Shown here in pieces: positions 1 through 35,420 of a DNA stretch of 35,871 bases. Origin of the DNA: Neocallimastix lanati (nom. inval.) (taxonomy: Eukaryota > Neocallimastigomycota > Neocallimastigomycetes > Neocallimastigales > Neocallimastigaceae); contig JACVTC010000373.1 of the NCBI GenBank assembly GCA_016946835.1, positions 1 to 35,871 on the forward strand, written 5' to 3'. The notes below the pieces were generated by a model. That model was not told where the DNA came from. It ran no database searches and saw nothing but the letters and a program-made list of their open reading frames with translations. Position 1 is the first letter of the stretch, and each line of letters begins with the position of its first letter. The translations under genes and the position numbers were made by a program.

Positions 1-186
1 TTTGATACCAAATTTAATGAACTTAAGCAATCTACGAATATTCAGAATGAAATAAGAAAAGTTAAAAATGAACAAAAAGTCTGTTTATCCGGTAGTAACT
101 GTTTGTCGGAACTTAAGATATCTAAAATTTATGATGTAGAAAATGAATTAACCGATTTATTACATACTCTTCAAACTAGGGGTTAG
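1..186 (+). CDS. Partial C-terminal gene fragment ending in telomeric repeat
   Basis: An open frame runs from the first base of the window for 61 codons to a TAG at 184-186. No in-frame ATG is present, so the gene starts upstream. Base composition (about 30% GC) and codons such as TCG, GTC, ACC and GGT set it apart from the almost pure A+T that follows. The peptide is rich in Lys, Glu, Asn, Leu and Ser. Residues 1-27 are charged and helix-like (NEIRKVKNEQK), two Cys lie at 28 and 34, and the tail is amphipathic (ENELTDLLHTLQ). I do not recognise a family. The last codons (Thr-Arg-Gly-stop) run into the telomeric tract that starts at 177, so the native C-terminus appears to be lost. It may be a gene broken and healed by telomere addition, or the natural last gene of the arm. 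It is real coding sequence with moderate confidence only; function unknown. Confidence 0.5.
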   Translation, partial: FDTKFNELKQSTNIQNEIRKVKNEQKVCLSGSNCLSELKISKIYDVENELTDLLHTLQTRG

Positions 187-201
187 GGGTTAGGGGTTAG
201 G
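177..201 (+). repeat. Telomeric tract 1, TTAGGGG type
   Basis: About three and a half G-rich repeats (TAGGGG, TTAGGGG, TTAGGGG, TTAGG) lie between the gene fragment and unit A copy 1. The four-G spelling differs from the three-G spelling of the other tracts, as expected of telomerase slippage rather than copying of one fixed element end. The G-rich strand is on +, so the original chromosome end would have pointed right. Confidence 0.85.
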
Positions 202-404
202 TTTTAAATTCTTTTATTTATTTAAGATTTACAAAGTATTACATGTATTTGATAAATATAATAATTACAAGAATAAAATATAATAATATAAAAATTATTT
301 AAAGTATTTACTAAATATAACTATTATAAGAATTAATAAGTAATTTGAAATATTAAATATTATTACTAAGTTAAAATTAATAAAGATTTAACTAACTAAT
401 AAAA

Positions 405-540
405 TTATTTAATATTAAAATATTTAAAGTTTGATAAAAAATATAAATTTAAAGTTATTAAAATTTTGATCAAAAATAAATTTAAAGTTATTAAAGTTTT
501 GATCAAAAGTAAATTAAAGTATTTAAAATTTTGATTAAAA
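405..540. repeat. Short direct repeats with TTTTGATCAAAA core
   Basis: Three imperfect direct repeats of about 30 bp (AAAGTTATTAAA, then TTTTGATCAAAA or TTTTGATTAAAA) lie near the left end of unit A copy 1. TTTTGATCAAAA is a perfect 12-bp palindrome. The same block follows 3385 in copy 2. The truncated A copy at 33399 stops just before this block. Confidence 0.55.
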
Positions 541-548
541 AGTAAAAC

Positions 549-567
549 GGATATACTAAATATGTCC
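549..567. repeat. Small hairpin in unit A
   Basis: Seven-base arms flank the loop CTAAA. In copy 2 (3508-3526) the arms GGACATA/TATGTCC pair perfectly. In copy 1 the single C-to-T change turns one pair into T552/G564, a wobble that RNA would still tolerate. It lies in one of the few GC-containing patches of the unit. Confidence 0.45.
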
Positions 568-839
568 ATTATCTAAAAAAGGAAAATATTCTAATTAACT
601 ATATCTAAGAGAAAATTATGAAAATTTAACTAACTTAAAATTCGTATACTGAAATCCCATGAGGAATTTCAATATCTTGACTATCTCTAAAAGGAAATAT
701 TAAAATAACTATTATTAAGTATTAATATCTATAAGTAAATATATCTAAAATAGATAATTATTATAAGTAAATAATTATATATGATAATAATCTAAGTATT
801 ATATAAGATATTAATCTAAGTATATAACTATAAAAAGTA

Positions 840-1960
840 ATAATAAAAATATATAATTATATAATTATTAAAATAAATAATTATATAAATGAATAAAATA
901 TATAATTATAAATGAAATATAATTATATAATAAAATAAAAATAAAAAATATAATTATTAAAATAAATAATTATATTAGATAATAATAAAAATATATAATT
1001 ATAAGAAAATAATTATATAAGTGAATAAAATATAATAAAATATATAATTATTATAAGCAAATAATTATATAAGTGAATAAAATATATAATTATTATAAGC
1101 AAATAATTATATTAGTGAAAAAAAAAATATATAATTATAAAAGATATATAAGTATATAATATAATAATAAAAATATATAATTATTAAAAGAAATAATTAT
1201 ATAAATAAATAATAAAATATATAATTATAAAAAGTATATAATTATATAAGTAAGTAAAAAGTATATAACTATTAAAGAAATAATTATATAAGATAATGAA
1301 AAAATATATAATTATTTAAAATAAATAATTATATAAGTAAATAAAAGTATATAATTATAAAAGATATATAATTATATAAGTAAATAAAAGTATATAATTA
1401 TAAAAGATATATAATTATATAAGTAAATAAAAAGTATATAATTATTTTAAGCAAATAATTATATAAGATAATGATAAAGAAAGTATATAATTATTTAAAA
1501 TAAATAATTATATAAGTAAATAATAAAAATATATAATTATAAAAGGTATATAATTATATAAGATAATAAAAAGTATATAATTATTAAAAGAAATAATTAT
1601 ATAAGAAAAAAGAGAAGTATATATAATTATTTAAAGAAAATAATTATATAAGAAATTAAAAAAAATATAATTATAAAAGATATATAATTATATAATAAAA
1701 TAAAATAAAAGTATATAATTATTAAAAGAAATAATTATATAAGATAATAAAAAATGTATAATTACTTAAAGTAAATAATTATACAAGAAAAGAAAAGAAG
1801 TATATATAATTATTAAAAGAAATAATTATATAAGATAATAATAAAAAGTATATAATTATAAAAATATAAAATTATATAAAATGATAAAAGTTTATATAAA
1901 ATTATATAAAATGATAAAAATTTATATAAAATTATATAAAATGATAAAAGTTTATAATTA
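840..1960. repeat. Tandem hairpin array in unit A copy 1
   Basis: More than twenty degenerate units of about 40-45 bp follow each other. Each carries arms of the type TATATAATTATT and AATAATTATATA around a short AAAAGA-like loop, so every unit can fold on itself. Spacers are variable AAG/TAAATAAAA text. One unit (1756-1784) has an A-T to G-C change present in both arms. The array is shared with copy 2 with small copy-number changes. No coding frame crosses it. Confidence 0.75.
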
Positions 1961-2337
1961 TTATCTAAAGATAATAACTATAATAAAATAAGAGTTAATA
2001 ATTAAAAAATAAAGGGTAAATAAAGTAAAGTAATTATTAACCAAAGTAAATAAAATAAATAAAAAAAGGTAAGGTTGAAAGAATAATAAAGGTTATAAAA
2101 ATATAATTATTATAATGAAAAAAAATAAAAGGTATTATATAAATATTTAAATTATTATGAAGACATAATAAAATAAGATATATATATATAGAGATAATTT
2201 ATAAAAGATAATTTATAAAAGATAAAAATAAAAATAAAATAAAAAAAGAATAAAAGAAAATAAAAAATAAAATAATAATTATTCTTATGTTATTTATATA
2301 TAATTAAATAAAAAGATTAAAAAAAAATAAATCTTTT

Positions 2338-2412
2338 AATAATTTATATATAAAGGGAACACAAGAAAAATTTATAATAATTTATATATAAAGGGAACAC
2401 AAGAAAAATTTT
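2338..2412. repeat. 38-bp tandem duplication, copy 1 only
   Basis: A segment containing AAAGGGAACACAAGAAAAAT is present twice in a row in unit A copy 1 and once in copy 2 (about 5308-5345). This is a simple duplication or loss since the two units diverged. Confidence 0.75.
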
Positions 2413-2752
2413 TAATATAAATTTTTTAAATATAAATATAAAAGAAGAATTATAATAAAAATTATAGAATTATATTAAAAGTAAAATAAAAGGATAACTA
2501 TTGTAAAAGTTAAAAGGGTAAATAAAGAAAGGAAAAATTATAAAACTATATAATTAATAAAAATCTAATATGTAAATAAATAAAAAAAATATATTTTATA
2601 CTAAATAAAAACTATATATAAAATAATTTAATTCTTTAATAATAAATAATAAAATAATAATAAAAATTATTATAAAAATTATTTATTAAAAAATTATTAA
2701 ATTATTTTATATAAGAGAAAAAAAAATAAAATATTAAAAATTAAATGAATTA

Positions 2753-2833
2753 AAAAGTGCACTTTTAAAATAATTATTTAACATTATTTGTTTTTATTCT
2801 TTTAAAATAGTTTTAATAATTATTTTAAAAGTG
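2753..2833. repeat. 14-bp palindrome nested in 19-bp inverted repeat
   Basis: AAAAGTGCACTTTT (2753-2766) is a perfect palindrome. From its centre a 19-base arm (2760-2778) pairs perfectly with 2815-2833 across a 36-base loop. The structure is unchanged in copy 2 (5676-5756). It could be a fold in a transcript or a cruciform; nothing tells which. Confidence 0.6.
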
Positions 2834-2926
2834 TAAATAAAAAAAAGTCAATAAAAAATTTTTTAATAACAATAAATAAAAATATAAAAAAAAATATAAT
2901 TATTTAGAGTTATCAAAAATAATGTA

Positions 2927-2957
2927 GTACAAAAAATAAAAATAAATTTTTTTGTAC
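2927..2957. repeat. GTAC hairpin
   Basis: GTACAAAAAA (2927-2936) pairs with TTTTTTGTAC (2948-2957) over an 11-base loop. It is present in both copies of unit A, in the copy 2 stretch near 5848-5881. Confidence 0.45.
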
Positions 2958-3069
2958 CGCAAAATATATATAATAATTAATAAATAGATAAATATGAATT
3001 ACCGTTATGATATAAAAAGATTTATAATAAATATAATTATTTAATAAAAAAAAAATAATTAAATAATAA

Positions 3070-3142
3070 ACCATAATGTATTTTGGATTATACATTAGGA
3101 GAAAAAACCATAATGTATTTTGGATTATACATTAGGAGAAAA
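3070..3142. repeat. Terminal 37-bp repeats of unit A copy 1 (x2)
   Basis: Two tandem 37-bp repeats end the unit immediately before a telomeric tract. Each contains the hairpin TAATGTAT / TTTGGATT / ATACATTA (arm, loop, arm). Copy 2 has three of these repeats (5993-6101), so the number varies. Confidence 0.8.
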
Positions 3143-3160
3143 GGGGGGTTTAGGGTTAGG
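3143..3160 (+). repeat. Telomeric tract 2
   Basis: Six G, then TTTAGGG, then TTAGG, joined directly to TTTTAAATTC of unit A copy 2. G-rich strand on +. Confidence 0.8.
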
Positions 3161-3799
3161 TTTTAAATTCTTTTATTTATTTAAGATTTACAAAGTATTA
3201 CATGTATTTGATAAATATAATAATTACAAGAATAAAATATAATAATATAAAAATTATTTAAAGTATTTACTAAATATAACTATTATAAGAATTAATAAGT
3301 AATTTGAAATATTAAATATTATTACTAAGTTAAAATTAATAAAGATTTAACTAACTAATAAAATTATTTAATATTAAAATATTTAAAGTTTGATAAAAAA
3401 TATAGGTTTAAAGTTATTAAAATTTTGATCAAAAATAAATTTAAAGTTATTAAAGTTTTGATCAAAAGTAAATTAAAGTATATAAAGTTTTGATTAAAAA
3501 GTAAAACGGACATACTAAATATGTCCATTATCTAAAAAAGGAAAATATTCTAATTAACTATATCTAAGAGAAAATTTATGAAAATTTAACTAACTTAAAA
3601 TTCGTATACTGAAATCCCATGAGGAATTTCAATATCTTGACTATCTCTAAAAGGAAATATTAAAATAACTATTATTAAGTATTAATATCTATAAGTAAAT
3701 ATATCTAAAATAGATAATTATTATAAGTAAATAATTATATATGATAATAATCTAAGTATTATATAAGATATTAATCTAAGTATATAACTATAAAAAGTA

Positions 3800-4925
3800 A
3801 TAATAAAAATATATAATTATATAATTATTAAAATAAATAATTATATAAATGAATAAAATATATAATTATAAATGAAATATAATTATATAATAAAATAAAA
3901 AATAAAAAATATAATTATTAAAATAAATAATTATATTAGATAATAATAAAAATATATAATTATAAGAAAATAATTATATAAGTGAATAAAATATAATAAA
4001 ATATATAATTATTATAAGCAAATAATTATATAAGTGAATAAAATATATAATTATTATAAGCAAATAATTATATTAGTGAAAAAAAAATATATAATTATAA
4101 AAGATATATAAGTATATAATATAATAATAAAAATATATAATTATTAAAAGAAATAATTATATAAATAAATAATAAAATATATAATTATAAAAAGTATATA
4201 ATTATATAAGTAAGTAAAAAGTATATAACTATTAAAAGAAATAATTATATAAGATAATGAAAAAATATATAATTATTTAAAAATAAATAATTATATAAGT
4301 AAATAAAAGTATATAATTATAAAAGATATATAATTATATAAGTAAATAAAAGTATATAATTATAAAAGATATATAATTATATAAGTAAATAAAAAGTATA
4401 TAATTATTTTAAGCAAATAATTATATAAGATAATGATAAAGAAAGTATATAATTATTTAAAATAAATAATTATATAAATAAATAATAAAAAATATATGAT
4501 TATAAAAGGTATATATTTATATAAGATAATAAAAAGTATATAATTATTAAAAGAAATAATTATATAAGAAAAAAGAAAAGTATATATAATTATTTAAAGA
4601 AAATAATTATATAAGAAATTAAAAATATATAATTATAAAAGATATATAATTATATAATAAAATAAAATAAAAGTATATAATTATTAAAAGAAATAATTAT
4701 ATAAGATAATAAAAAATGTATAATTACTTAAAGTAAATAATTATACAAGAAAAGAAAAGAAGTATATATAATTATTAAAAGAAATAATTATATAAGATAA
4801 TTATAATTATTAAAAGAAATAATTATATAAGATAATAATAAAAAGTATATAATTATAAAAATATAAAATTATATAAAATGATAAAAGTTTATATAAAATT
4901 ATATAAAATGATAAAAGTTTATAAT
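3800..4925. repeat. Tandem hairpin array in unit A copy 2
   Basis: Counterpart of the 840-1960 array, with the same 40-45 bp self-complementary units. The doubly substituted unit is conserved at 4718-4746 (GTATAATTA and TAATTATAC arms). Confidence 0.75.
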
Positions 4926-5992
4926 TATTATCTAAAGATAATAACTATAATAAAATAAGAGTTAATAATTAAAAAAGAAAGGGTAAATAAAGTAAAGTAA
5001 TTATTAACCAAAAGTAAATAAAGTAACTATAAAAGGTAAGGTTGAAAGAATAATAAAAGTTATAAAAATATAATTATAATAATGAAGAAAAATAAAAGGT
5101 ATTATATAAATATTTAAATTATTATGAAGACATAATAAAATAAGATATTTATATAAAGATAATTTATAAAAGATAATTTATAAAAGATAAAAATAAAAAT
5201 AAAAGAAAAAAAAGAAAAAAAGAAAATAAAAAAATAAAATAATAATTATTCTTATGTTATTTATATATAATTAAATAAAAAGATTTTTAAAAAAAAATAA
5301 ATCTTTTAATAATTTATATATAAAGGGAACACAAGAAAAATTTTTAATATAAATTTTTTAAATATAAATAAAATTAAATATAAAAGAATTATAATAAAAA
5401 CTATAAAATTATATTTAAACTATTGTAAAAGTTAAAAGGGTAAATAAAGAAAGGAAAAAATTATAAAACTATATAATTAATAAAAATCTAATATGTAAAT
5501 AAATAAAAAAAAAAAATATTTTATACTAAATAAAAACTATATATAAAATAATTTAATTCTTTAATAATAAATAATAAAATAATAATAAAAATTATTATAG
5601 AAATTATTTATTAAAAAATTATTAAATTATTTTATATAAGAGAAAAAAATAAAATATTAAAAATTAAATGAATTAAAAAGTGCACTTTTAAAATAATTAT
5701 TTAACATTATTTGTTTTTATTCTTTTAAAATAGTTTTAATAATTATTTTAAAAGTGTAAATAAAAAAAAGTCAATAAAAAATTTTTTAATAACAATAAAT
5801 AAAAATATAAAAAAAAATATAATTATTTAGAGTTATCAAAAATAATGTAGTACAAAAAATAAAAATAAATTTTTTTGTACCGCAAAATATATATAATAAT
5901 TAATAAATAGATAAATATGAATTACCGTTATTATCTAAAAAGATTTATAATAAATATAATTATTTAATAAAAAAAAATAATTAAATAATAAA

Positions 5993-6101
5993 TCATAATG
6001 TATTTTGGATTATACATTAGGAGAAAAAACCATAATGTATTTTGGATTATACATTAGGAGAAAAAACCATAATGTATTTTGGATTATACATTAGGAGAAA
6101 A
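5993..6101. repeat. Terminal 37-bp repeats of unit A copy 2 (x3)
   Basis: Three repeats with a 37-bp period, starting at 5993, 6030 and 6067; the first differs from the others by a C-to-T change. They end at a telomeric tract. Confidence 0.8.
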
Positions 6102-6115
6102 GGGTTAGGGTTAGG
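6102..6115 (+). repeat. Telomeric tract 3
   Basis: GGGTTAGGGTTAGG between unit A copy 2 and unit B copy 1; the next bases are TTTTAAACG. Confidence 0.8.
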
Positions 6116-6161
6116 TTTTAAACGTTATAATTTTATTTAATAAAATTAATCAAAATAGTTA

Positions 6162-6178
6162 ATACATTATTAATGTAT
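6162..6178. repeat. Left-end inverted repeat of unit B
   Basis: ATACATTA-T-TAATGTAT, a 17-base inverted repeat 46 bp inside the left end of B. It recurs at 33685-33701, and unit C has an 18-bp perfect version at 33075-33092. The same octamers form the hairpin of the 37-bp terminal repeats of unit A. Confidence 0.6.
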
Positions 6179-6784
6179 ATATAATTTAAGAAAAATCATT
6201 ATTGATTTTCAAGAAGTTTAATTATTAAACTATTCTAGCGACTATTATTATTTTAAACAAATAATAATAGAAAATAAGATTTTTATTTTAGATATTAAAA
6301 TCTATTCTAAGATTTTTAAACTATTCTATTTGTAACAAAGAATTCTATACTATTCTAGAGAATTATTATTAAGAAAATAATAATAATTATAGCAAGCGAA
6401 TAATAACTTTAAATATTAAGTAATTATTATTGTAAAATAATAATTAATACAATCTTTAAGAATTAATATTATTATAAAAATAATAATTAATACATGAGTT
6501 TATAATTATTATGAGAAATAATAATTAATACATGAGTTAATAAATAATACATTTTAAAATAGAAAATTATTATTATTATGAAAAAAATAATAATTAATAC
6601 ATGATTTTATAGAAGATTATTATTATGAGAAATAATAATCAAACAATTTTGATTAAAAAATATTGTTATTATATAAATAATAACAATTATACATAAGTTT
6701 ATTAAATAGATTATTATAATAATAAAATAATTAATTATTAAATAAATAATAATTAATTAAAAGTATTGTTAATTATTATAACAA

Positions 6785-7215
6785 TCATAGAGAATAAAGA
6801 AAATACATCCCAAGAAGGTAAGGTCGGAGAACCGAGAACCAAAAAAAGGGATCCAAAGAATCCAGAATAACCCAAAGAATAGACAAGAGAACTAAAAGAC
6901 AAGAACTCTGAATCAAAGGAGTACCCTGGAGAATAAGCAAACGAGAATCTAACAACCAATCAAGTAACCAGAAGAATAACCGAAAGAGAATCCAGCAAAC
7001 CAACAAAGAGTAAACCGGAGAGTTCAGCAAGACAACAGAAATCCTGAAAACCAAAAGGAACCAAAAAATCATTCCAAAAGGAAACCGGAGAGATTACATT
7101 CCAGTAATCAAAAGTGAGAACCGGAGTTTAAATCAAAAAGAGTCCAGCTAACAAAAGTGTCAACTGGAAGAGTTTAAAGACATTCCAGAAAACAGGTTAA
7201 AAAACCTGAATTCTG
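6785..7215. other. T-poor, GC-elevated island in unit B copy 1
   Basis: Around 430 bp with roughly 40% GC by eye and very few T on the + strand, inside 90% A+T sequence. It shows a degenerate 35-36 bp periodicity: CCGGAG at 7015, 7085 and 7121, the related CTGGAAGAG at 7164, and repeated TTCCAG and GAATCCAG words. It ends with a perfect hairpin, CAGGTT/AACCTG (7193-7208). Two overlapping - strand frames (6785-7072, ATG start, 95 codons, Leu/Phe-rich; 6753-6959, no ATG) exist, but T-poor sequence lacks stops on its complement, so they are weak. The second copy at 34308-34738 differs at one base in this block (T6950 versus C34473). It may be a decayed minisatellite or a non-coding RNA; a small hydrophobic protein is possible but unsupported. 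Confidence 0.55.
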
Positions 7216-7794
7216 GGCGAATTATTTAAATATATTTTATTTTATTTTGATATAATGAATATTGCAAACGAATACTCATTAATACGGAAAAAATATTTTA
7301 AAAAAAAACAAAAGATATTTATACTCTAAATTTCTTTATTATTAAAAAAATAAAACAAAATATTATAAAATAAAACAAAATATTATAGGTCCACTTTTAA
7401 TTTACATTTTAATACAAAGGGATTTATTCTTTTATTTAAAATAATTTATTTATATTAATAAAATAAAATAAAATAAAAAAACGGATTCATAAAAATTTAT
7501 TTGTTTTTAAAATAATTTATTTATTATTTTGTTTTATCAAAGGGATGATGCAAATATAAAAACAATATAATTATAAAACTATTATTTTAAACAATATTTA
7601 AAAATAAATAAATAATGACAATAAACAATAGAACAAACGCTTTTATTTTATATAATATAAATTTTTAATTAATAATTTCAAATAATTTCGTAAAACTAAA
7701 TTAAAATTATTTTTTAAAATTTAAAACTGAATTAAAAGTAATTAATTTTATATAAGTTTTTCATATTTTATAAATTTAAAAAAAAAATAATATA

Positions 7795-7975
7795 TATATA
7801 TATATATATATTTTTTTTTTTGCTTTGCTTCTTTTTTTTCTTTTTTTTTTTTTTTTTTTTTTTTTTTTCTTTTTTTTTGCTTTGCTTCTTTTTTTTTCTT
7901 TTTTTTTTTCTTTTTTTTTTTTTGGTTATATAGTAATAAAAATCTAATAAAAAAAAAAAAAAAAAAAAAAAAAAG
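7795..7975. repeat. Polypyrimidine and poly-A tract of unit B
   Basis: A (TA)n run leads into T-rich sequence with TTGCTTTGCTTC twice (once in the second copy), followed by about 26 A. Length differences here account for most of the size difference between the two B copies. Confidence 0.75.
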
Positions 7976-8324
7976 TTTTTTAAATAATAATAATTTAAAT
8001 ATTAAACAAAAACTAATAAATAAAATATTTTAATATAGTTATTTAAAAATTAATAATTAATTAAATTTCATAATTAAATATTAATAAATTATAGTTATAA
8101 TACAATGAAAATAGCATTAAAAAAAATACTATTTGTTATTTATAAATTAAACATTAATCCAATCAATATATATTAATATAAATATTAAAATTATCATATT
8201 AAAATGAAAATTTTGTATAAATTTTATTATTAGTTATATATATTGATATTTTGGTATTATTTAGGTATTATATTTATTATCTATTATATAATTTATTTTA
8301 TTATTTATAATTTTAATAAATGTT

Positions 8325-8460
8325 TATTATTATTTATGATTCTTTAATATTTATAATTTTAATAAACGTTAATAATTATTTATTTATGATTCTTTAATTT
8401 ATAATTTTAAAAAACGTTAATAATTATTTATTTATGATTCTTTAATTTATAACTTTTAAT
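8325..8460. repeat. Short tandem repeats around AAACGTTAATAATT
   Basis: Three to four imperfect units of about 50-55 bp carry TTTATGATTCTTTAAT and AAACGTTAATAATTATT. The window's end lies inside the equivalent block of copy 2. Confidence 0.6.
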
Positions 8461-8639
8461 TATTTTTTTTTAATAATTATTTTTAAAAATAAAAAATGGG
8501 TTATCCATATTTTAAAGTAAAACTTTTTTAAAATAAATTTAAGACATTTAAAATTATAAGGTCTTTAATAAAAAAAAGATAGTTATACTCATTTCATGAC
8601 CTTTTTTTAAATAAATAATTTTTGAAAAAAAATTAATTA

Positions 8640-9210
8640 ATTTACATATAATAAAAAAATACTTCTTCCCATAATGTTTAATTTTTTTTATTTTATTTAA
8701 TTTTTTTATTTTATTTTTTTTTTTTTTTTAATAAAAATGAAAGAAAGAAAAAACCATAATAAAAAATATTATTTTTTCTATCTTTCTAAAATTTAGCCTT
8801 TTAATAAGCAAAAAAAGGATAGCAAAAAAAAATTCTTATATTCTTTTATTTTTTTTTCCTTTCTTTCTTTCTTTCTTATTTTTTTTAAATAAAAAACATA
8901 TATATTATTGTTTTTAATTTTCTAAAATTTTAGCCTTTTACAATTAAAAAAAGAAAAAAAAAATTCATCTCCTCCCTCTCATCACTTTTTTTTTATTTTT
9001 ATTTTATTTTATTCTTTAAAAAAAATAATTAAAAATAAAAATAAAAAATTAAAATAAAAATGAAGGAAAAATATTTTTTCTTTTTATCTTTCTAAAATAG
9101 AAAAAAAAAATTTCCTTCTTCCATTTCATCATTTTTTAATTTTTTTTATTTTTATTTTTATTTTATTTTTTTTTTAAAAATAATTTAAAATAAAAATAAT
9201 AAAAAAATTA

Positions 9211-9248
<38 letters not shown>

Positions 9249-9881
9249 TTATTTCTTTTATCTTTCTAAAGTAGAAAAAAAAAAAGAAAAAAATTTCCCT
9301 CTTCCTTTCATCATTTTTTAATTTAATTTATTTTTTTTTAAAAAATAATTTAAAATAAAAATAAAAAAAAAAAAATAAAAAAAAAAAGAAAGAAAAAAGA
9401 AAAATATTATTTCGTTTATCTTTCTAAAATAAAAAAAAAAAAAAAGAAAAAAATTCCCCTCTTCCTTTCATCATTTTTTAATTTTTTTTTTTTTTTTTAA
9501 TTTTATTTTATTTTATTTTTAAAATAAAAATAAAAAAAAAATAAAAAAAAAAAAAAAGAAAGAAAAAAGAAAAATATTTATTTCTTTTATTTTTCTAAAA
9601 TAGAAAAGAAAAAAGAAAAAAATTCCCCTCTTCCTTTCATCATTTTTTAATTTTTTTTTTTTTTTTAATTTTATTTTATTTTATTTTTAAAATAAAAATA
9701 AAAAAAAAATAAAAAAAAAAAAAAGAAAGAAAAAAGAAAAATATTTATTTCTTTTATTTTTCTAAAATAGAAAAGAAAAAAGAAAAAATTCCCCTCTTCC
9801 TTTCATCATTTTTTAATTTTTTTTTTATTTTTATTTTTATTTTATTTTTAAAATAAAATAATTTAAAATAAAAATAAAAAA

Positions 9882-9921
<40 letters not shown>

Positions 9922-10150
9922 AAGAAAGAAAAATATTTATTTCTTTTATTTTTCTAAAATAGAAAAAAAAGAAAAAGAAAAATTTTCCCCTCTTCCTCTC
10001 AACATTTTTTAATTTTTTTTTTTTTATTTTTATTTTTATTTTATTTTTAAAATAAAATAATTTAAAATAAAAATAATAAAAAAAATTAATAAAAAAAAAA
10101 AAAAAGAAAGAAAGAAAGAAAAATATTTATTTCTTTTATCTTTCTAAAGT
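8640..10150. repeat. 160-196 bp purine/pyrimidine tandem repeat
   Basis: About eight units, each with a C+T patch (CCCTCTTCCTTTCATCA), a T-rich run, an A-rich run, an AAGAAAGAAAAA stretch and a small TTTTCTA/TAGAAAA hairpin. CTTCC landmarks fall at about 9301, 9461, 9630, 9796 and 9992. Leftmost units are most diverged. No coding frame. Confidence 0.7.
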
Positions 10151-10316
10151 TAAACTTTTTACAAAGTAAAAAGCTTGCAATAAGAAAAAAAAAATTAAAA
10201 AAAAAAATAAATATTATCTATGCACCAAAAATAATTATTATCCCAAAAAAAAACCCACAATCAAAAATTTTATTTCGCTATTTAAAATTTTAATAATTAT
10301 ATAATTTTATTTTATT

Positions 10317-10354
<38 letters not shown>

Positions 10355-10974: not shown

Positions 10975-11260
10975 TATTTTTTTATTTTATTATTTTTTTA
11001 TTTAATTTTTTTTTGTAGCATTTATTTATTATTTATTATTTAATTATTTAATTATTTAATTATTATTTATTTATTTATTATTTAATTATTAATTATTTAT
11101 TATTTATTATTTATTATTTTTTATTACTTATTTATTACTTATTATTTAATTATTTATTATTTATTATTTTTATTTATTATTTATTTTTTTATTTATTATT
11201 TATTATTTATTTTTTTATTTATTATTTATTATTTATTTATATATAATTTTTATTTACTTA
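10975..11260. repeat. TTATTATTTA low-complexity tract
   Basis: An irregular mixture of TTATT, TTATTT and TTAATTA words, pyrimidine-biased on +. Similar text recurs inside the foldback element at 20657-20941. Confidence 0.7.
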
Positions 11261-12951: not shown

Positions 12952-12990
<39 letters not shown>

Positions 12991-20600: not shown

Positions 20601-20601
20601 A

Positions 20602-22777: not shown

Positions 22778-22812
<35 letters not shown>

Positions 22813-22824
22813 AAATATATTTTA

Positions 22825-23660: not shown

Positions 23661-26600
23661 ATTTAAATAAAGAATAAAATAAAGATAAAATAAAATAAAG
23701 AATAAAATAAAGATAAAATATAATAAAGAGAAAAAAAATAAAATAAAAAAAATAAAATAAAATAAAGAATAAAATAAAGAATAAAATAAAAAATAAAATA
23801 AAATAAAGAATAAAATAAAAATAAAGAATAAAATAAAAATAAAGAATAAAATAAATCAAAATAACATAAAATAAAATAAAGAATAAAATAAAGAATAAAA
23901 TAAAATAAAAAATAAAATAAAATAAAGAATAAAATAAATCAAACCAACATAAAATAAAATAAAGAATAAAATAAAGAATAAAATAAAGAATAAAATAAAA
24001 ATAAAATAAAATAAAATAAAATAAAAAAGAAATAAAATAAAATAAAATAAAGAATAAAAAGAAATAAAATAAAAATAAAATAAAATAAAATAAAATAAAA
24101 ATAAAATAAAATAAAATAAAAAATAAAATAAAAAAGAAATAAAAAAAAAATAAAGAATAAAATAAAATAAAAAATTAAAATAAAATAAAACATAAAGAAT
24201 AAAATAAAATAAAATAAAGAATAAAAAAGAAATAAAATAAAATAAAGAATAAAAAAGAAATAAAATAAAATAAAGAATAAAATAAATCAAAATAAAGAAT
24301 AAAATAAAATAAAAAATTAAAATAAATCAAAATAAAGAATTGAATGAAATAAAAAATTAAAATAAAATAAAATAAAGAATTGAATAAAATAAAATAAATA
24401 ATGAAATATAAAATAAAATAAAACATAAAAAATAAATAAAAAATAAAATAAAAAAAATAAAATAAAACATAAAGAATAAAATAAAATAAAACATAAAGAA
24501 TAAAATAAAATAAAACATAAAGAATAAAATAAAATAAAGAATAAAATAAAATAAAACATAAAGAATAAAATAAAATAAAGAATAAAATAAAATAAAACAT
24601 AAAGAATAAAATAAAATAAAACATAAAGAATAAAATAAAATAAAGAATAAAATAAAGAATAAAATAAAATAAAATAAAATAAAGAATAAAATAAAATAAA
24701 ATAAAATAAAGAATAAAATAAAATAAAATAAAATAAAGAATAAAATAAAATAAAATAAAATATAGAATAAAATAAAATAAAATAAAATAAAATAAAATAA
24801 AATAAAATAAAATAAAAAATAAATCAAAATAAAATAAAATAAAGAATAAAATAAATCAAAATAAAATATAATAAAGAATAAAATAAATCAAAATAAAATA
24901 AAATAAAAAATAAAATAAAATAAAATAAAGAATAAAATAAAATAAAATAAAATAAAGAATAAAATAAAATAAAATAAAATAAAGAATAAAATAAAATAAA
25001 ATAAAATAAAATAAATAAAATAAAATAAAATAAAATAAAATAAAATAAAATAAAATAAAATAAAATAAAATAAAATAAAATAAAATAAAATAAAAATAAA
25101 TCAAAATAAAATAAAATAAAGAATAAAATAAATCAAAATAAAATATAATAAAGAATAAAATAAATCAAAATAAAATAAAATAAAAAATAAAATAAAATAA
25201 AATAAAGAATAAAATAAAAAAGATATAAAAAAAAATAAAGAATAAAATAAAAAAGATATAAAAAAAAATAAAGAATAAAATAAAAAAAATAAAGAATAAA
25301 ATAAAAAAAAATAAAGAATAAAATAAAATAAAATAAAGAATAAAAGAGAAATAAAATAAAATAAAATAAAATAAAATAAAGAATAGAATAAAATAAAATA
25401 AATAATAAAATATAAAGAAATAAAATAAAACATAAAAAATAAATAAAAAATAAAAAAAAAAAAAAATAAAACATAAAGAATAAAATAAAGATAAATAAAA
25501 TAAAATAAAGAATAGAATAAAATAAAATAAAGAATAAAATATAAAGAAAATAAATAAAAAAAATAAAATAAAACATAAAGAATAAAAAAAAAAATAAAAT
25601 AAAACATAAAGAATAAAAAAAAATAAAATAAAACATAAAGAATAAAAAAAATAAAATAAAACATAAAGAATAAAAAAAATAAAATAAAACATAAAGAATA
25701 AAAAAAAATAAAATAAAACATAAAGAATAAAATAAAATAAAGAATAAAATAAAATATAATAAGGAATAAAATAAATCAAAATAAAATATAATAAAGAATA
25801 AAATAAATCAAAAAAAATAAAATAAAAAAAAAATAAAATAAAACATAAAGAATAAAATAAAGATAAATAAAATAAAATAAAGAATAGAATAAAATAAAAT
25901 AAAGAATAAAATATAAAGAAAATAAATAAAAAAAATAAAATAAAACATAAAGAATAAAAAAAAATAAAATAAAACATAAAGAATAAAATAAAATAAAATA
26001 AAATAAATAAAATAAAATAAAATAAAATAAAATAAAATAAAATAAAATAAAATAAAATAAAATAAAATAAAATAAAATAAAATAAAAAATAAATCAAAAT
26101 AAAATAAAATAAAGAATAAAATAAATCAAAATAAAATATAATAAAGAATAAAATAAATCAAAAAAAATATAATAAAGAATAAAATAAATCAAAAAAAATA
26201 AAATAAAAAAAAAATAAAATAAAACATAAAGAATAAAAAAAAGATAAATAAAATAAAGAATAAAATATAAAGAAAATAAATAAAAAAAATAAAATAAAGA
26301 TAAATAAAATAAAATAAATAAAATAAAATAAAGAATAAAATAAAATAAAATAAAGAATAAAATAAAGATAAATAAAATAAAATAAAGAATAGAATAAAAT
26401 AAAATAAAGAATAAATAAAATATAAAGAAATAAAATATATCATAAAAAATAAATAAAAAATAAAATAAAAAAAAATAAAATAAAACATAAAGAATAAAAT
26501 AAAGATAAATAAAATAAAATAAAGAATAAAATAAAAATTAAAATAAAATAAAAAAGAAATAAAATAAAACATAAAAAATAAAATATAAAGAAATAAAATA

Positions 26601-28320
26601 TATCATAAAAAATAAATAAAAAATAAAATAAAGAATAGAATAAAATAAAACATAAAGAATAAAATAAAACATAAAGAATAAAATAAAGATAAATAAAATA
26701 AAATAAAGATAAATAAAATAAAATAAATAAAATAAAATAAAGAATAAAATAAAATAAAATAAAGAATAAAATAAAGATAAATAAAATAAAATAAAGAATA
26801 GAATAAAATAAAATAAAGAATAAATAAAATATAAAGAAATAAAATATATCATTAAAAAATAAATAAAAAATAAAATAAAAAAAAATAAAATAAAACATAA
26901 AGAATAAAATAAAGATAAATAAAATAAAATAAAGAATAGAATAAAATAAAATAAAGAATAAAACAAAGATAAATAAAATAAAATAAAGAATAGAATAAAA
27001 TAAAATAAAGAATAAAACAAAGATAAATAAAATAAAATAAAGAATAGAATAAAATAAAATAAAGAATAAAACAAAGATAAATAAAATAAAATAAAGAATA
27101 GAATAAAATAAAATAAAGAATAAAATAAAATAAAATAAAGAATAAAATAAAATAAAATAAAGAATAAAATAAAATAAAATAAAGAATAAAATAAAATAAA
27201 ATAAAGAATAAAATAAAATAAAATAAAGAATAAAATAAAAAAGAAATAAAATAAAATAAAAAATAAAATAAAATAAAATAAAAAATAAAATAAAATAAAA
27301 TAAAATAAAAAATAAAATAAAATAAAATAAAATAAAATAAAGAATAAAATAAAAAAGAAATAAGAATAGAATAAAATAAAATAAAGAATAAAACAAAGAT
27401 AAATAAAATAAAATAAAGAATAGAATAAAATAAAATAAAGAATAAAACAAAGATAAATAAAATAAAATAAAGAATAGAATAAAATAAAATAAAGAATAAA
27501 ATAAAATAAAATAAAGAATAAAATAAAATAAATAAAGAATAAAATAAAATAAAATAAAGAATAAAATAAATAAAATAAATAAAATAAAATAAAATAAAAT
27601 AAAATAAAATAAAATAAAATAAAATAAAATAAATAAATAAAATAAATAAAATAAAATAAATAAAAATAAAATAAAATAAAATAAAATAAAGAATAAAATA
27701 AAGAATAAAATAAAATAAAAAATAAAATAAAATAAAATAAAATAAAATAAAAAATAAAATAAAATAAAATAAAATAAAAAATAAAATAAAGAATAAAATA
27801 AAATAAAAAATAAAATAAAATAAAATAAAATAAAATAAAAAATAAAATAAAATAAAATAAAATAAAATAAAGAATAAAATAAAAAAGAAATAAGAATAGA
27901 ATAAAATAAAATAAAGAATAAAATAAAGATAAATAAAATAAAATAAAGAATAGAATAAAATAAAATAAAGAATAAAATAAAATAAAATAAAGAATAAAAT
28001 AAAATAAAATAAAGAATAAAATAAAAAAGAAATAAAATAAAATAAAGAATAAAATAAAATAAAATAAAATAAAAAATAAAATAAAATAAAATAAAATAAA
28101 AAATAAAATAAAATAAAATAAAATAAAGAATAAAATAAAGAATAAAATAAAATAAAAAATAAAATAAAATAAAATAAAATAAAAAATAAAATAAAATAAA
28201 ATAAAATAAAATAAAAAATAAAATAAAATAAAATAAAATAAAATAAAGAATAAAATAAAAAAGAAATAAAATAAATAAAATAAAATAAAGAATAAAAAAA
28301 AATAAAATAAAAAATAAAAC
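23661..28320. repeat. AAAAT / AAAGAAT microsatellite array (4.6 kb)
   Basis: Nearly pure AAAAT pentamers with regular AAAGAATAAAAT interruptions and rarer GATAAAT, GAAAT, CATAAAG, CAAAT and ACAAAGAT variants. It shows higher-order periods, e.g. 54 bp between AAACAAAGAT words at 26961, 27015 and 27069. The complement (TTTTA)n contains no stop codon in any frame, so - strand frames of up to 631 codons (26440-28335) made of F, Y, I and L arise by chance. None is accepted as a gene. Confidence 0.9.
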
Positions 28321-28750
28321 GAAAAATAAAAACATTTAATGACTATTTTTTTTTTAAGGAATATATTATTTTTAGCAATACTTTTTTTATTTAAAAGAAT
28401 AATTTTTTTTAAATAATATTTTATTCTTTTAAATAATATTTTATTTGAAGTTTATTTTAAAGTATCATTTTTTTTTTATTATTAAGAATATTTTTTTTTT
28501 TTAGGTATAGGTACTTTTTTTAAATACAAATATTTTTAAGACTTTTTTAATTTTTAAATATAAGAATATATATATATTTTATTATTTAAATATTTTTATT
28601 GAATATTTTATTTTATATTTATTTATTTATTTTTTTTTAAAATAAAAATAAATAAGAAAAAAAAAAAAAAAAAAAAAAAAAAACTTTAATACTAATTTAA
28701 CATTATTTATTAAAACTGCTTATTTATTAATTCAATTATTAAAAATTTAG
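28321..28750. other. A+T-rich spacer
   Basis: T-rich text with AAATAATATTTTATT repeated (28411-28445) and poly-A of about 35 (28649-28683). No gene seen. Confidence 0.5.
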
Positions 28751-28751
28751 T

Positions 28752-28774
28752 TAGCCACATTTTTCGAAATACTA
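28752..28774. repeat. Solo TIR-like motif, inverted
   Basis: TAGCCACATTTTTCGAAATA followed by CTA is the reverse complement of the left-end motif (TATTTCG..ATGTGGCTA). Read on the - strand, the 47-bp block 4 runs into it, as blocks 1 and 2 do on +. Confidence 0.45.
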
Positions 28775-28779
28775 TAATT

Positions 28780-29290
28780 CCATATTCATTAGTATATTAA
28801 AATATTTATTTATATTATTAATATATATTCATTAAAATATATAATAAATAATTTATTTATATTATTAATATATATTCATTAAAATATATAATAAATAATT
28901 TATTTATATTATTAATATATATTCATTAAAATATATAATAAATAATTTATTTATATTATTAATATATATTCATTAAAATATATAATAAATAATTTATTTA
29001 TATTATTAATATATATTCATTAAAATATATAATAAATAATTTATTTATGTTATTAATATATATTTATTAAAATATATAATAAATAATTTATTTATATTAT
29101 TTATATATATTCATTAAAATAGATATTAAAATATTTATTTATATTATTAATATATATTCATTAAAATATATATCGAAATATTTATTTAAGTAATTAATAA
29201 ATATTCATTAATATATATATCAAAATATTTATTTAAGTAATTAATATATATTCATTAATATATATATTAAAATATTTATTTAAGTAATTA
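28780..29290. repeat. 47-bp satellite, block 4, inverted
   Basis: About ten units of TATATTCATTAAAATATATA and AATAATTTATTTATATTATT, period 47 bp (28817 to 28864). This is the reverse complement of the block 1-3 family. Confidence 0.85.
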
Positions 29291-29510
29291 TTTTATTTTT
29301 TTTATTCTTTATTTTATTTTATCTTTATTTTATTCTTTATTTTATTTTATTTTTTTTATTTTTTATTTTATTTTTTTTTTATATTCTTTATTTTATTTTA
29401 TTTTTTATTATATTATTTTTTATTTCTTTTTTATGTTTTATTTTATTTATTTTTTATTTTATTTATTTTTTATTTTATTTTATTTATTTTTTATTTTATA
29501 TTTTTATATT
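29291..29510. repeat. TTTTATTCTT tract, inverted pentamer array
   Basis: TTTTA pentamers with TTCTT interruptions, the reverse complement of the 23661-28320 array, adjoining inverted 47-bp units just as the large array adjoins direct ones. Confidence 0.75.
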
Positions 29511-29850
29511 ACAATTTTTTTTATATTTTGATTTATTTAATTAGAAATTGCTTTAAAGAAAATATTTTATTGTATTAAAAAAAAAAAAAAAATAAATAAT
29601 TTATTAGTTAAAAATTAAAATAATAAATAATTAATCTTATAAATATTAATAACTATTAATTGAATATATATAAATTATTTGATGGATGATATAATCCATT
29701 AAATTAAAAATTTAATATTATAAATAAATTTTTATTAAACATAAAAATATATCAAAACAATTTTTTCTTAAAATATTATTTAATTTTAATATGATTAACA
29801 TAAATTAAAGATAAATTATCCTATGATAATTTCATTTTTTTATGTAAAAA
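29511..29850. other. Unique A+T-rich spacer
   Basis: Plain A+T text with a short poly-A near 29578-29592. No gene or clear repeat. Confidence 0.45.
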
Positions 29851-30470
29851 TCATTTATAGTTCATGTGGAAAACATAAATAAATGACAAAATAGCATATG
29901 ATTTTACATAATTTTATGAAAATAAAGCATTATTTTTCATGTGGAAAACATAAATAAATGACAAATTATCATATGATTTTTACATAATTTTATGTAAAAA
30001 ACATTAATTTTTCATGTGAAAACATAAATTAATGACAAAATATCATATGATTTTTACATAATTTTATGTAAAAAACATTAATTTTCATGTGAAAAAAATA
30101 TTAATATCATATGATTTTACATAATTTTATGTAAAAAAACATTAATTTTTCATGTGAAAAACATAAATTAATGACAAAATATCATATGATTTTTACATAA
30201 TTTTATGTAAAAAAACATTAATTTTTCATGTGAAAAACATAAATAAATGACAAAATATCATATGATTTTTACATATTTTTATGTAAAAAAACATTAATTT
30301 TTCATGTGAAAAACATAAATTAAAGACAAACTATCATATGATTTTTACATAATTTTATGTAAAAAAACATTTATTTTTCATGTGAAAAACATAAATTAAT
30401 GATAAAAAAAATTAATGATGAAATATCAAATGATGATTTATATAATTTAATATAAGAAAACAAATAAAAT
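29851..30470. repeat. 75-bp palindrome-rich tandem repeat
   Basis: Seven to eight units; CATATG landmarks at 29895, 29970, 30044, 30108, 30183, 30259 and 30335 (period 74-76, one of 64). Each unit carries ATCATATGAT, ACATAATTTTATGT and TTTTCATGTGAAAA, three self-complementary or near self-complementary words. Confidence 0.85.
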
Positions 30471-30684
30471 TATATTTTATTTTTTTATATTTAATTGCAA
30501 TTATTTTAAATTATATAATTATTAATAGATTAGTATGTTGTTTGAATAATACTAATCAATATTAAAAATTTAAAAATTTTTTATATTTATATTTATTTTT
30601 TATTTTATATTTTATATTTGATTTTAATTTATTTTAAATTATTACTTAGATTTTAATTTACATTAGAATAAAGTTAATTAATTA

Positions 30685-31080
30685 AATTTATAATGATTAA
30701 ATAATTAATAACATATAATTATGATATTATAAAATTTATATTTTTAATTTTATAATGATTAAATAATTTATAACATATAATTATGATATTATAAAATTTA
30801 TATTTTTAATTTTATAATGATTAAATAATTAATAACATATAATTATGATATTATAAAATTTATATTTTTACTTTTATAATGATTAAATAATTAATAACAT
30901 ATAATTATAATATTAATAAAATTTTATTATTTAATAATGATTAAATAATTAATAAAATTTACTATGATATTAGAGAAATTTTTATTTTTAATTAAATAAT
31001 TATTAAATAATAAATAATATATCATTATTATTTATATTTTTAATTTGATAATGATTAAATAATAAATAAAATATATATAT
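30685..31080. repeat. 62-bp tandem repeat
   Basis: TAATGATTAAATAATTAATA at 30691, then about 30753, 30815 and 30877 (62-bp period), decaying to the right. Confidence 0.75.
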
Positions 31081-33022
31081 AATATTATTAAAATTCACAT
31101 TTTTAATTAAAATATAATTTTTAAATAAAATTTAAATTTATATTTTAATAATTAATTATATATTATATTGTGAAGTATATATAATTATATTGATAATAAA
31201 TATTATTTGCAATATATTAAATTTTAAATAAAATATTACAATTTTTAAATAATAATTTACTTAATCTCAATGATAGTATATAAATACAGCTATTATTTTA
31301 TTAATAAAAATTTAAATTATATTATAAATGATATGAACAATTAAATTTTAAAATTATTAAAAATATTTATTTTATTTGTTTAATTATTAGTAAAAAAGAA
31401 TAATAAGAATATTACATTATACATATGGAAAAATTTATAATATTAAAATTTAATATAGAAGATAAAAAAAAAAATTTTTTTTATATATTTATATAAAATA
31501 AATAAAAATATTTAATTTTTTTTTTTTAATTTAAAATTTTGTTATTTTTTGTTTTAATGTATAAATTAAAAAAAAAAAATGAAAGTTTATTTTAAAATAT
31601 AATGTATATATATAAAAAATTTTTTTTTATATTCAGGTATATATAAAAATTGAAATTTTTTATTTTTAATTAGTTCAGAATTATTTTATTTTTACTATTA
31701 ATGTATAAAAAAATAAACATAAAAATAATTATTTATATTTTAAATTAATAATAATAAATTTAAAAATTTATAAAAAAATAATTTTATGTAAATAATGTAT
31801 ATTATTAAATTATGTTTTAAGTGGTAAAATGATATAAATTTATATTAATATATAAATATAATTATTTTTTTAGAATATAAAATTTAAATGATTTTTCAAT
31901 TTAAAATTAAATACTTTATATAAAAATTTCAATTAATATATAATATTAATTTAAATAAATTTAAAATTTAATAGTATAAGATTACTTCTATTTAAATTTA
32001 ATATTAAATATTATTATATTATTATTAAAATATTTTATTTATTATAGTATATTTTTAGTAATTAGTATTAACGTTTGAATATAATAATCTTGATAGATTA
32101 CTATAAATATTAAAATATTTCGTTTTTAAAAAATATAATTATTCGTATAAAATAATATATATATTATTTTTATTATTTATTTTATTTATTTTCTAAATAA
32201 AAAGAAAATAAATTGCAATAAAAAATATTTAAAAGAATTAATAATTGAAATATTTTTTTATAAAGGAAAGTATTTATTAAAAAAATTAATAAAAAAAAAA
32301 AAATATTAATATAATTAAATTAATTTAAAAATTCAATTATCGAATATTTTTAGTTTTATAATTAATAAAGAAATATATTTAATATATTTTAAATTGATTT
32401 ATTAAAATTAGTATTTTCATTTTAATTTATATTTTATCAATAATAATTTCAATTATTTTAAATTTCAAATTATAAATTTAGAAAATTGTATATATATATT
32501 AAATTATTATTATAATGGAAAGGTATAAAATTATTTATATTATTACAGTTTATTAGATTTTAAAAATATATAATTTTTGATTAATATAATAAGTTTTTAT
32601 TTATATAAAATACTTTCAAGTATAAAATTAAGAAAATTTATTTTCAATTATGAACAAAATATTAATATTTAATTTAATAAATAAAAATAAGATTTATTTA
32701 AAATTTATTGTTAAATTTAAGGCTAATAATTTTTATTTTATAATTAAAATGATTAATATTTTGTTATTAAAATAAAAACAAATAACTTTTAAGATTATTT
32801 AATATTTAAAATTGAAATAAAATTATTTAAATATAAATTAATTTAAAAAATAAAGAAAATTTAGTTTAAATGAAATTTATAAATTTGTTAAAAATTTTCC
32901 AATATAAGAGTAAAACGGATTCATTGAAAAAATAAAATTAGTCTAACTAATTTAAAAAATTAAATTATTTTATAAGAAAGAAATAAAAATAAAAAATAAA
33001 GATAAATTTAAATTATTATTTA
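31081..33022. other. Unique A+T-rich stretch up to telomeric tract 4
   Basis: Nearly 2 kb with no accepted gene, tandem array or RNA. Only homopolymers and scattered A+T words. It stops at a telomeric tract. Confidence 0.5.
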
Positions 33023-33032
33023 TAGGGTTAGG
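33023..33032 (+). repeat. Telomeric tract 4
   Basis: TAGGGTTAGG, followed directly by TTTTAAACTTTG. Short, but the same junction as the other five. Confidence 0.7.
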
Positions 33033-33388
33033 TTTTAAACTTTGTAATTTTTATTAAAATTATTCGATTAGATAATACATTAATTAATGTATATATAAAT
33101 TATATGAAATCATGACTACATGATTTTAAGTAAATTAATACATTTTTAGTAAAAAATAAAAGTTCGATAAAGTAAAAAAAGTATATATCTATAAAGTTTA
33201 GAATTTTAAGGAAGAGAAAAATTATTCTTTTAAAGTAGATGAATAATAAAAGTAATTCTAATAAAAGAATTTTTGTAATTATTTAAAAGAATATAAAGTT
33301 TTTTAAATGATAATAAAGTATTTTAAAATTAAATTTATAAAGAATTTAAGTTTTAGTTTGTTTGTAAATAAGTATAAGTATTTAAAGC
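33033..33388. repeat. Unit C, short diverged relative of unit B left end
   Basis: The first 90 bp align with unit B (TTTTAAAC, TAATTTT, TTAATACATTA, TTAATGTATATATAA), including a perfect 18-bp palindrome at 33075-33092. The rest is unlike B, and the unit stops after 356 bp at a telomeric tract. No coding frame. Confidence 0.65.
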
Positions 33389-33398
33389 TAGGGTTAGG
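33389..33398 (+). repeat. Telomeric tract 5
   Basis: TAGGGTTAGG followed by TTTTAAATTC. Confidence 0.7.
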
Positions 33399-33626
33399 TT
33401 TTAAATTCTTTTATTTATTTAAGATTTACAAAGTATTACATGTATTTGATAAATATAATAATTACAAGAATAAAATATAATAATATAAAAATTATTTAAA
33501 GTATTTACTAAATATAACTATTATAAGAATTAATAAGTAATTTGAAATATTAAATATTATTACTAAGTTAAAATTAATAAAGATTTAACTAACTAATAAA
33601 ATTATTTAATATTAAAATATTTAAAG
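33399..33626. repeat. Unit A, truncated copy (left end only)
   Basis: Matches 202-429 of unit A copy 1 without indel (and 33627-33629 continues the match). It then passes straight into telomeric sequence, so the right 2.7 kb of unit A is missing. Confidence 0.85.
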
Positions 33627-33638
33627 TTTAGGGTTAGG
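33627..33638 (+). repeat. Telomeric tract 6
   Basis: TTTAGGGTTAGG. The TTT can belong either to unit A (TTTGATAAA) or to the telomeric repeat, a 3-bp overlap at the breakpoint. Confidence 0.75.
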
Positions 33639-35420
33639 TTTTAAACGTTATAATTTTATTTAATAAAATTAATCAAAATAGTTAATACATTATTAATGTA
33701 TATATAATTTAAGAAAAATCATTATTGATTTTCAAGAAGTTTAATTATTAAACTATTCTAGCGACTATTATTATTTTAAACAAATAATAATAGAAAATAA
33801 GATTTTTATTTTAGATATTAAAATCTATTCTAAGATTTTTAAACTATTCTATTTGTAACAAAGAATTCTATACTATTCTAGAGAATTATTATTAAGAAAA
33901 TAATAATAATTATAGCAAGCGAATAATAACTTTAAATATTAAGTAATTATTATTGTAAAATAATAATTAATACAATCTTTAAGAATTAATATTATTATAA
34001 AAATAATAATTAATACATGAGTTTATAATTATTATGAGAAATAATAATTAATACATGAGTTAATAAATAATACATTTTAAAATAGAAAATTATTATTATT
34101 ATGAAAATAATAATAATTAATACATGATTTTATAGAAGATTATTATTATGAGAAATAATAATCAAACAATTTTGATTAAAAAATATTGTTATTATATAAA
34201 TAATAACAATTATACATAAGTTTATTAAATAGATTATTATAATAATAAAATAATTAATTATTAAATAAATAATAATTAATTAAAAGTATTGTTAATTATT
34301 ATAACAATCATAGAGAATAAAGAAAATACATCCCAAGAAGGTAAGGTCGGAGAACCGAGAACCAAAAAAAGGGATCCAAAGAATCCAGAATAACCCAAAG
34401 AATAGACAAGAGAACTAAAAGACAAGAACTCTGAATCAAAGGAGTACCCTGGAGAATAAGCAAACGAGAATCCAACAACCAATCAAGTAACCAGAAGAAT
34501 AACCGAAAGAGAATCCAGCAAACCAACAAAGAGTAAACCGGAGAGTTCAGCAAGACAACAGAAATCCTGAAAACCAAAAGGAACCAAAAAATCATTCCAA
34601 AAGGAAACCGGAGAGATTACATTCCAGTAATCAAAAGTGAGAACCGGAGTTTAAATCAAAAAGAGTCCAGCTAACAAAAGTGTCAACTGGAAGAGTTTAA
34701 AGACATTCCAGAAAACAGGTTAAAAAACCTGAATTCTGGGCGAATTATTTAAATATATTTTATTTTATTTTGATATAATGAATATTGCAAACGAATACTC
34801 ATTAATACGGAAAAAATATTTTAAAAAAAAACAAAAGATATTTATACTCTAAATTTCTTTATTATTAAAAAAATAAAACAAAATATTATAAAATAAAACA
34901 AAATATTATAGGTCCACTTTTAATTTACATTTTAATACAAAGGGATTTATTCTTTTATTTAAAATAATTTATTTATATTAATAAAATAAAATAAAATAAA
35001 AAAACGGATTCATAAAAATTTATTTGTTTTTAAAATAATTTATTTATTATTTTGTTTTATCAAAGGGATGATGCAAATATAAAAACAATATAATTATAAA
35101 ACTATTATTTTAAACAATATTTAAAAATAAATAAATAATGACAATAAACAATAGAACAAACGCTTTTATTTTATATAATATAAATTTTTAATTAATAATT
35201 TCAAATAATTTCGTAAAACTAAATTAAAATTATTTTTTAAAATTTAAAACTGATTTAAAAGTAATTAATTTTATATAAGTTTTTCATATTTTATAAATTT
35301 AAAAAAAAATAATATATATATATATATATATTTTTTTTTTTTGCTTTGCTTCTTTTTTTTCTTTTTTTTTTTTTTTCTTTTTTTTTTTTTTTTTGGTTAT
35401 ATAGTAATAAAAATCTAATC

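Follow-up and report, generated by a model that had tools for sequence, protein, structure and literature searches.

Six telomeric joints on one contig of Neocallimastix lanati

The window analysed here is an entire contig of the Neocallimastix lanati assembly (C305, 35,871 bp; the assembly comprises 199 Mb in 762 contigs), and it carries units of three kinds, A, B and C, each joined at one end to a short telomeric tract. The joint, TTAGG followed by TTTTAAA (TTAGGTTTTAAA), starts at positions 197, 3156, 6111, 33028, 33394 and 33634, in all six cases on the + strand, and none was found on the – strand of the window. The positions, strand and TTAGG phase claimed in an earlier note on this DNA were thus confirmed, and dinucleotide shuffles of the window contained 0.09 joints on average and never reached six. 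Very probably, these units are copies of telomere-associated long interspersed nuclear elements (LINEs), whose RNAs ending in UUUAAAA would be reverse-transcribed from TTAGG ends of the telomeric G-strand, the resulting copies then being capped by telomerase.

A scan for telomeric tracts revealed no terminal telomere at the ends of C305 (features in Table 1). The first tract has a variant G-run, (TAGGGGT)n, and directly abuts AAAC of the left flank; the left-flank reading frame, of ordinary composition, appears cut by this tract as if a broken gene or chromosome end had been healed. A and B do differ completely after TTTTAAA, as stated in the earlier note, and this is the only sequence common to A and the two other kinds, but B and C are related, since a C copy identical to that of the window aligns to the first 84 bp of B at 80%. 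Copies of A are nearly identical (99.8% between C200 and the window), and their distal end (37-bp repeats followed by GGG) recurs twice in the window and also on C57, C126 and C200. A1 was taken as a putative full-length, non-autonomous element.

Table 1. Features of the window in order of position
Feature	Position	Strand	Basis or remark
Left flank, open reading frame (ORF) FDTKF...LHTLQT ending at telomeric tract	1..176	+	translation
Telomeric tract, TAGGGGT repeats, final unit TTAGG	177..201	+	tract scan
Unit A1, 2,948 bp, 3′ end at 202, RNA sense on –	202..3149	–	other copies share distal end
37-bp repeats (two), 5′ (distal) end of A1	3068..3142
Telomeric tract	3150..3160	+
Unit A2, 2,944 bp, 95.7% identity to A1	3161..6104	–	alignment
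37-bp repeats (three), 5′ (distal) end of A2	5990..6101
Telomeric tract	6105..6115	+
Unit B1, 26.9 kb, without reverse transcriptase (RT) or ORF-X	6116..33022	–
Repeat array in B1, period near 168 bp	8986..10148
B1 segment also on C126 (L092), 98%	26671..31378
Telomeric tract TAGGGTTAGG	33023..33032	+
Unit C, 356 bp, 5′-truncated	33033..33388	–	100% to 3′ end of C5 copy
Telomeric tract TAGGGTTAGG	33389..33398	+
Unit A3, 230 bp, 5′-truncated, 100% to A1 start; last base common to tract	33399..33628	–
Telomeric tract	33629..33638	+
Unit B2, 2,233 bp visible, open at contig end, 97% to B1	33639..35871	–

B1 contains further repeat arrays at 13546–18333 (period 195 bp), 18483–20460 (274 bp) and 22780–23683 (47 bp), while 23664–28331 is repetitive without a single clear period and has about 5% G+C. 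A minisatellite at 11468–12171, built of units resembling TTTAGGGTCAAAAAA, includes TTAGGG-like pieces but is not a telomeric tract. All nine ORFs of at least 100 amino acids in the window (bacterial code) lie at 23856–28335 on the – strand and are apparently low-complexity products of the repeat arrays.

Phase, orientation and cut points across the assembly

An assembly-wide search for the joint, as suggested in the earlier note, yielded no excess of the bare 12-mer (295 matches versus 468 for the reversed control), a string that is frequent by chance because the genome is so AT-rich, but the telomere-extended 17-mer TAGGGTTAGGTTTTAAA matched 106 times versus 0 for its reversed control. The 100 of these 106 matches that were listed spread over 47 contigs, which argues against an assembly artefact, and all 22 contigs with several hits among them kept one strand. 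The G-strand faced a contig end at 50 kb or less in 67 of the 75 listed junctions with a known distance and at more than 50 kb in 8 (25 of the 100 listed were unplaced), so that the junctions do not lie mostly away from telomeres. Among the 100 of 317 telomere matches listed, a terminal telomere array (within about 600 bp of the end) was present on 12 contig ends (C57, C126, C131, C141, C177, C185, C191, C197, C200, C269, C296 and C349), and in 12 of 12 an outward-pointing joint lay less than 5 kb from that contig end.

Phase was examined by searching the 3′ ends of the units without any telomere in the pattern and then reading the preceding bases. Of 115 B/C ends 100 were listed, and 94 of these followed TTAGG, as did 56 of the 63 A ends; TAGG preceded one further end of each group. 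In the 94 TTAGG-joined B/C ends the last repeat has exactly two G, whereas the penultimate one has three G in 63 and four G in 23. No extra T after TTAGG was present among the matches listed, nor was a three-T form of the B/C end found. A single phase therefore dominates, rather than many, and the constant phase and orientation described in the earlier note extend beyond the window.

Five chromosome-end stretches of about 10 kb carry A, B and C units with their 3′ end inward, and four of them reach a terminal telomere (82, 244, at least 334 and 439 bp). B copies retain between about 30 bp and 27 kb of sequence counted from the 3′ end, one C copy on C177 is cut within its RT gene, and near-identical copies end at different places, their distal ends being re-capped by telomere repeats. 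In the sequence examined, 57 distinct joint contexts were left after removal of identical ones, a number that haplotype variants may inflate. The tract comprised two repeat units in 30 contexts, three in 15, four to 22 in 7, one in 3 and none in 2. Wherever the last base of the element was C, the tract started with TAGGG (9 of 9 contexts). Telomerase healing is the best interpretation of this border, because the present terminal telomeres on C57 and C126 likewise start with TAGGG after C. Two copies stand beside non-telomeric DNA, namely a B copy on TAGG on C505 (...GATAC-TAGG-TTTTAAAC) and a copy joined to TTTAGG on C98, and their sequences would fit healing of broken ends.

Separately, a telomere array at C212:1486026–1486388 (L102 covers 1486341–1486440) lies about 27 kb inside a contig of 1.51 Mb, and its G-strand does not face the nearer end but the opposite way; it may reflect a fusion, an inversion or a misjoin.

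A partner encoding reverse transcriptase and the proposed mode of attachment

No match to the RT or ORF-X protein was found in the window, in agreement, as far as the RT goes, with the earlier note, and an RT of the kind that this note had suggested seeking near chromosome ends is present on C126. There, a unit with the 3′ end of B encodes a LINE protein of 1,201 amino acids with an apurinic/apyrimidinic (AP)-type endonuclease, an RT and a zinc knuckle, followed downstream of the RT by a second, RNA-binding-like protein (ORF-X). This gene order recurs in three copies, and no further ORF was seen upstream of the RT in 3.7 kb, the distance searched. The RT belongs to RVT_1 (1.6e-31) and matches LINE-1/R2 in the PDB both by sequence and by fold. 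The endonuclease domain is N-terminal and AP-like and is intact in both fold and motifs; its best fold match, TRAS1 (1wdu), ranks level with L1 and R1. With a LINE-type RT, such an endonuclease, a fixed 3′ end and variable 5′ truncation, the unit has the make-up of a LINE. No C-terminal restriction-like endonuclease was seen in the about 40 residues that follow the knuckle (1134–1172 of P0001, with at most some 30 more on C126), which by eye hold no RHD motif. A quick tree of 34 RTs, with no named R1 element, placed the query beside Orpinomyces and unnamed proteins and away from the sequences of birds and plants and the jockey-like ones of sea urchin.

Over its first 71 bp, B is 98.6–100% identical to this autonomous element in the copies compared. 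In B1 this 3′ end is followed by a body of its own and then by a 5′ region partly common to C126. Much of B1 between 8.0 and 10.1 kb matches the autonomous unit at 80–92%, and the array with the period near 168 bp resembles, at about 79–86% identity, the sequence that lies upstream of the C126 RT gene. On C126 (L092) the B1-like segment stops at the point matching 31378, after which come TTTGGGGGGTTAGG and a C unit. No telomere tract of at least two units was detected inside B1 (6116–33022). We read B1 as a probable non-autonomous derivative whose long 5′ part consists mostly of repeat arrays; its 27 kb may be a single transcribed element, and an old chromosome end may be common to C126 and C305. 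All 356 bp of the C fragment in the window are identical to the 3′ end, before ORF-X, of a copy on C5 that encodes this protein. The earlier note had regarded the units as non-autonomous, as A and B indeed look to be; C is a 5′-truncated piece of the autonomous lineage.

These data suggest the following course of events. The autonomous lineage (ends B′ and C) encodes the AP-endonuclease/RT protein and ORF-X, and its RNAs, like those of its non-autonomous relative B and of the hitch-hiker A, would all end in UUUAAAA and be copied by this RT. Reverse transcription would begin exactly at the four A's, primed by the TTAGG 3′ end of the telomeric G-strand, and the copy would therefore extend outward, its 3′ end on the proximal side. 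Copies would stop short (5′ truncation), or erode later, and telomerase would cap the cut end starting with TAGGG, so that the next copy attaches to a short stub. Target-primed reverse transcription from the G-strand characteristically leaves a fixed 3′ joint, an outward direction and truncated 5′ ends. The strict 3′ phase, the outward orientation, the many distal cut points, the lack of RT and ORF-X matches in the window and the RT-bearing partner with the same 3′ end on C126 support the proposal, made in the earlier note, of G-strand-primed reverse transcription on RNAs ending in TTTAAAA. Because the stubs are of two or three units while present chromosome ends bear 82–439 bp, attachment to very short ends is favoured. 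For the choice of TTAGG three ways remain: a nick by the endonuclease (TTAGG^G), pairing of an exposed overhang, or an RNA carrying CCUAA.

Several observations weigh against this explanation. The 13 listed ends without TTAGG comprise C-TAGG, A-TAGG, a telomeric TTAGA (C22), two B ends that abut a T-run and not a telomere (C57:3608–3641 and C537:3646–3679), and eight others, which lie in AT-rich or other non-telomeric DNA and which we take to be probable chance matches or odd copies. Some arrays are internal, with the joint and telomere of C58 lying 66–69 kb inside the contig, and in stretch L094 one pair of B units (about 2.3 kb and 0.1 kb) recurs with identical cut points, a sign of local recombination. 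Folds of the 3′ 110 nt compared with shuffles gave z values of 0.66 (A), –1.96 (B) and –0.91 (C). Because A shares only TTTTAAA and its 3′ fold is no better than shuffles, its use of the same RT is putative. The distal truncation could be erosion followed by healing, and the two matches to a telomerase RNA-binding domain, both on C106, are weak (28.5 and 27.4 bits at a cut-off of 25, one with two stops inside).

As in TRAS/SART, the endonuclease might instead nick the telomeric duplex between two G residues (TTAGG^G), leading to insertion inside the telomere and not at its end, a possibility that we regard as less likely. The intact endonuclease domain would suit it, as would the constancy of the 5′ side (TAGGG after C), which a staggered cut would leave, and SART1 is reported to insert into telomeres and not at ends (PMC7265360). 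However, random sites predict tracts of all lengths, whereas two units (30 of 57 contexts) and three (15 of 57) prevail, as against 82–439 bp in the four terminal telomeres read; later shrinkage of tracts could produce such short ones. Moreover, the same TAGGG start caps truncated units at the terminal telomere, so that telomerase healing explains it as well, and SART1 is described as requiring at least three repeats (PMC7265360).

A further, rather doubtful reading is that read-through into the proximal stub yields an RNA with a short telomere-complementary 3′ tail (...UUUAAAACCUAA). Acting in the manner of a telomerase template, this tail would base-pair to an exposed 3′ end in TTAGG, and copying would proceed through the joint. 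If true, this would account for the constant TTAGG cut and the constant run of four A's in three families, and the element would heal chromosome ends, even nearly telomere-less ones such as that on C505, in a fungus that has telomere repeats as well.

It is unlikely that the joints were multiplied mainly by recombination (break-induced replication between interstitial tracts) from a few old, true attachments. Arrays of the same spacing on C57/C537/C545, C157/C297, C175/C402 and C126/C269/C347/C497, as duplications or haplotigs, speak for it together with the repeated pair in L094, and MoTeR arrays are reported to undergo events of this kind (PMC7367193). The 57 contexts, allowing for their possible inflation, the single phase across three families of different bodies and the different cut points of near-identical copies speak against it. 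Still less probable is the alternative of the earlier note that the 3′ end of the element invariably includes TAGGGTTAGG, with an RNA ending in ...UUUAAAACCUAACCCUA. Two units are the modal tract, both borders are constant in phase, and the C505 and C98 copies keep TAGG and TTTAGG next to non-telomeric DNA; yet tracts range from 1 to 22 units, with G-runs of 3, 4 or more within one family, so that the whole 10-mer is unsupported and only a final TTAGG, which the RNA could template, is possible. An assembly artefact or foreign contigs, for which the AT-rich repeats and several near-duplicate contigs might be invoked, are hardly credible given the 62x PacBio reads reported for the published assembly (PMC8561657), the recurrence on 47 contigs among the matches listed, the presence of RT and ORF-X on separate ENA contigs of 3–6 kb (same or another isolate) and an Orpinomyces RT with 65% identity over half its length.

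Relation to known telomeric elements

The elements are best read as working like MoTeR1/2 or TRAS/SART, with a different lineage and gene order. They resemble MoTeR1/MoTeR2 of Magnaporthe/Pyricularia oryzae and the FoTeRs of Fusarium oxysporum in being fungal telomere-associated LINEs in arrays with short tracts; MoTeR2 is a shorter, non-autonomous companion. MoTeR arrays are described at chromosome ends, with short interstitial tracts and 5′ truncation followed by healing (PMC7367193), and truncated copies of MoTeR/FoTeR type as capped from in-frame seeds or after C (PMC7367193; PMC12857005). FoTeR and MoTeR1 are reported to have a C-terminal restriction-like endonuclease and to group with Cnl1, CRE and SLACS (PMC12857005). 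The fungal telomere LINEs considered here, MoTeR, FoTeR and Cnl1, are all of the restriction-like endonuclease type. In contrast to MoTeR, FoTeR and Cnl1, the endonuclease here is N-terminal and of AP type, and a second protein lies downstream of the RT.

TRAS and SART of Bombyx mori are described as LINEs with an AP-type endonuclease in telomeric repeats that the host retains; SART1 has ORF1 and ORF2 and a poly(A) end, and TRAS and SART occupy C/T or T/A steps of the repeat (PMC7265360). The endonuclease class and the retention of telomeric repeats are shared with the elements described here, whereas the RT preceding ORF-X, the exact AAAA end and the joint after TTAGG of TTAGGG are not. TTTT stood at the joint in place of a poly(A) end, with no longer or shorter forms after TTAGG among the matches listed.

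HeT-A/TART/TAHRE form head-to-tail arrays that include an RT-less member. They are retrotransposons added to chromosome ends in Drosophila, which is described as having neither telomerase nor telomere repeats (PMC7265360). Unlike Drosophila, N. lanati has terminal TTAGGG arrays and the two weak telomerase matches, one with stops. Athena/Coprina Penelope-like elements and the terminons of bdelloids also combine terminal attachment, short telomeric stretches and very long units. Endonuclease-deficient Penelope-like elements are reported at telomeres (PMC3846280). Their RT is of Penelope/TERT type, with a GIY-YIG endonuclease or none, unlike the LINE-type RT and AP-type endonuclease found here.

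Here, in a different fungal phylum, an AP-endonuclease LINE occupies the same telomere niche as the restriction-like group. It combines a TRAS1-like endonuclease fold with a further protein encoded after the RT and is accompanied by two RT-less kinds of unit, one reaching 27 kb, which points to independent origins of telomere targeting. The 57 joint contexts and more than 100 junctions in the genome also provide a natural data set for joint choice and possible end healing in a fungus that retains telomere repeats.

Diverged pieces of ORF-X (32–77% identity) adjoin A-type joints in L045 (C128) and L053 (C168) and may represent an older autonomous subfamily. Another RT fragment, with 37% identity to the first, lies beside a diverged C-like end in L004 and L005 (C1 near 3776000–3778100).
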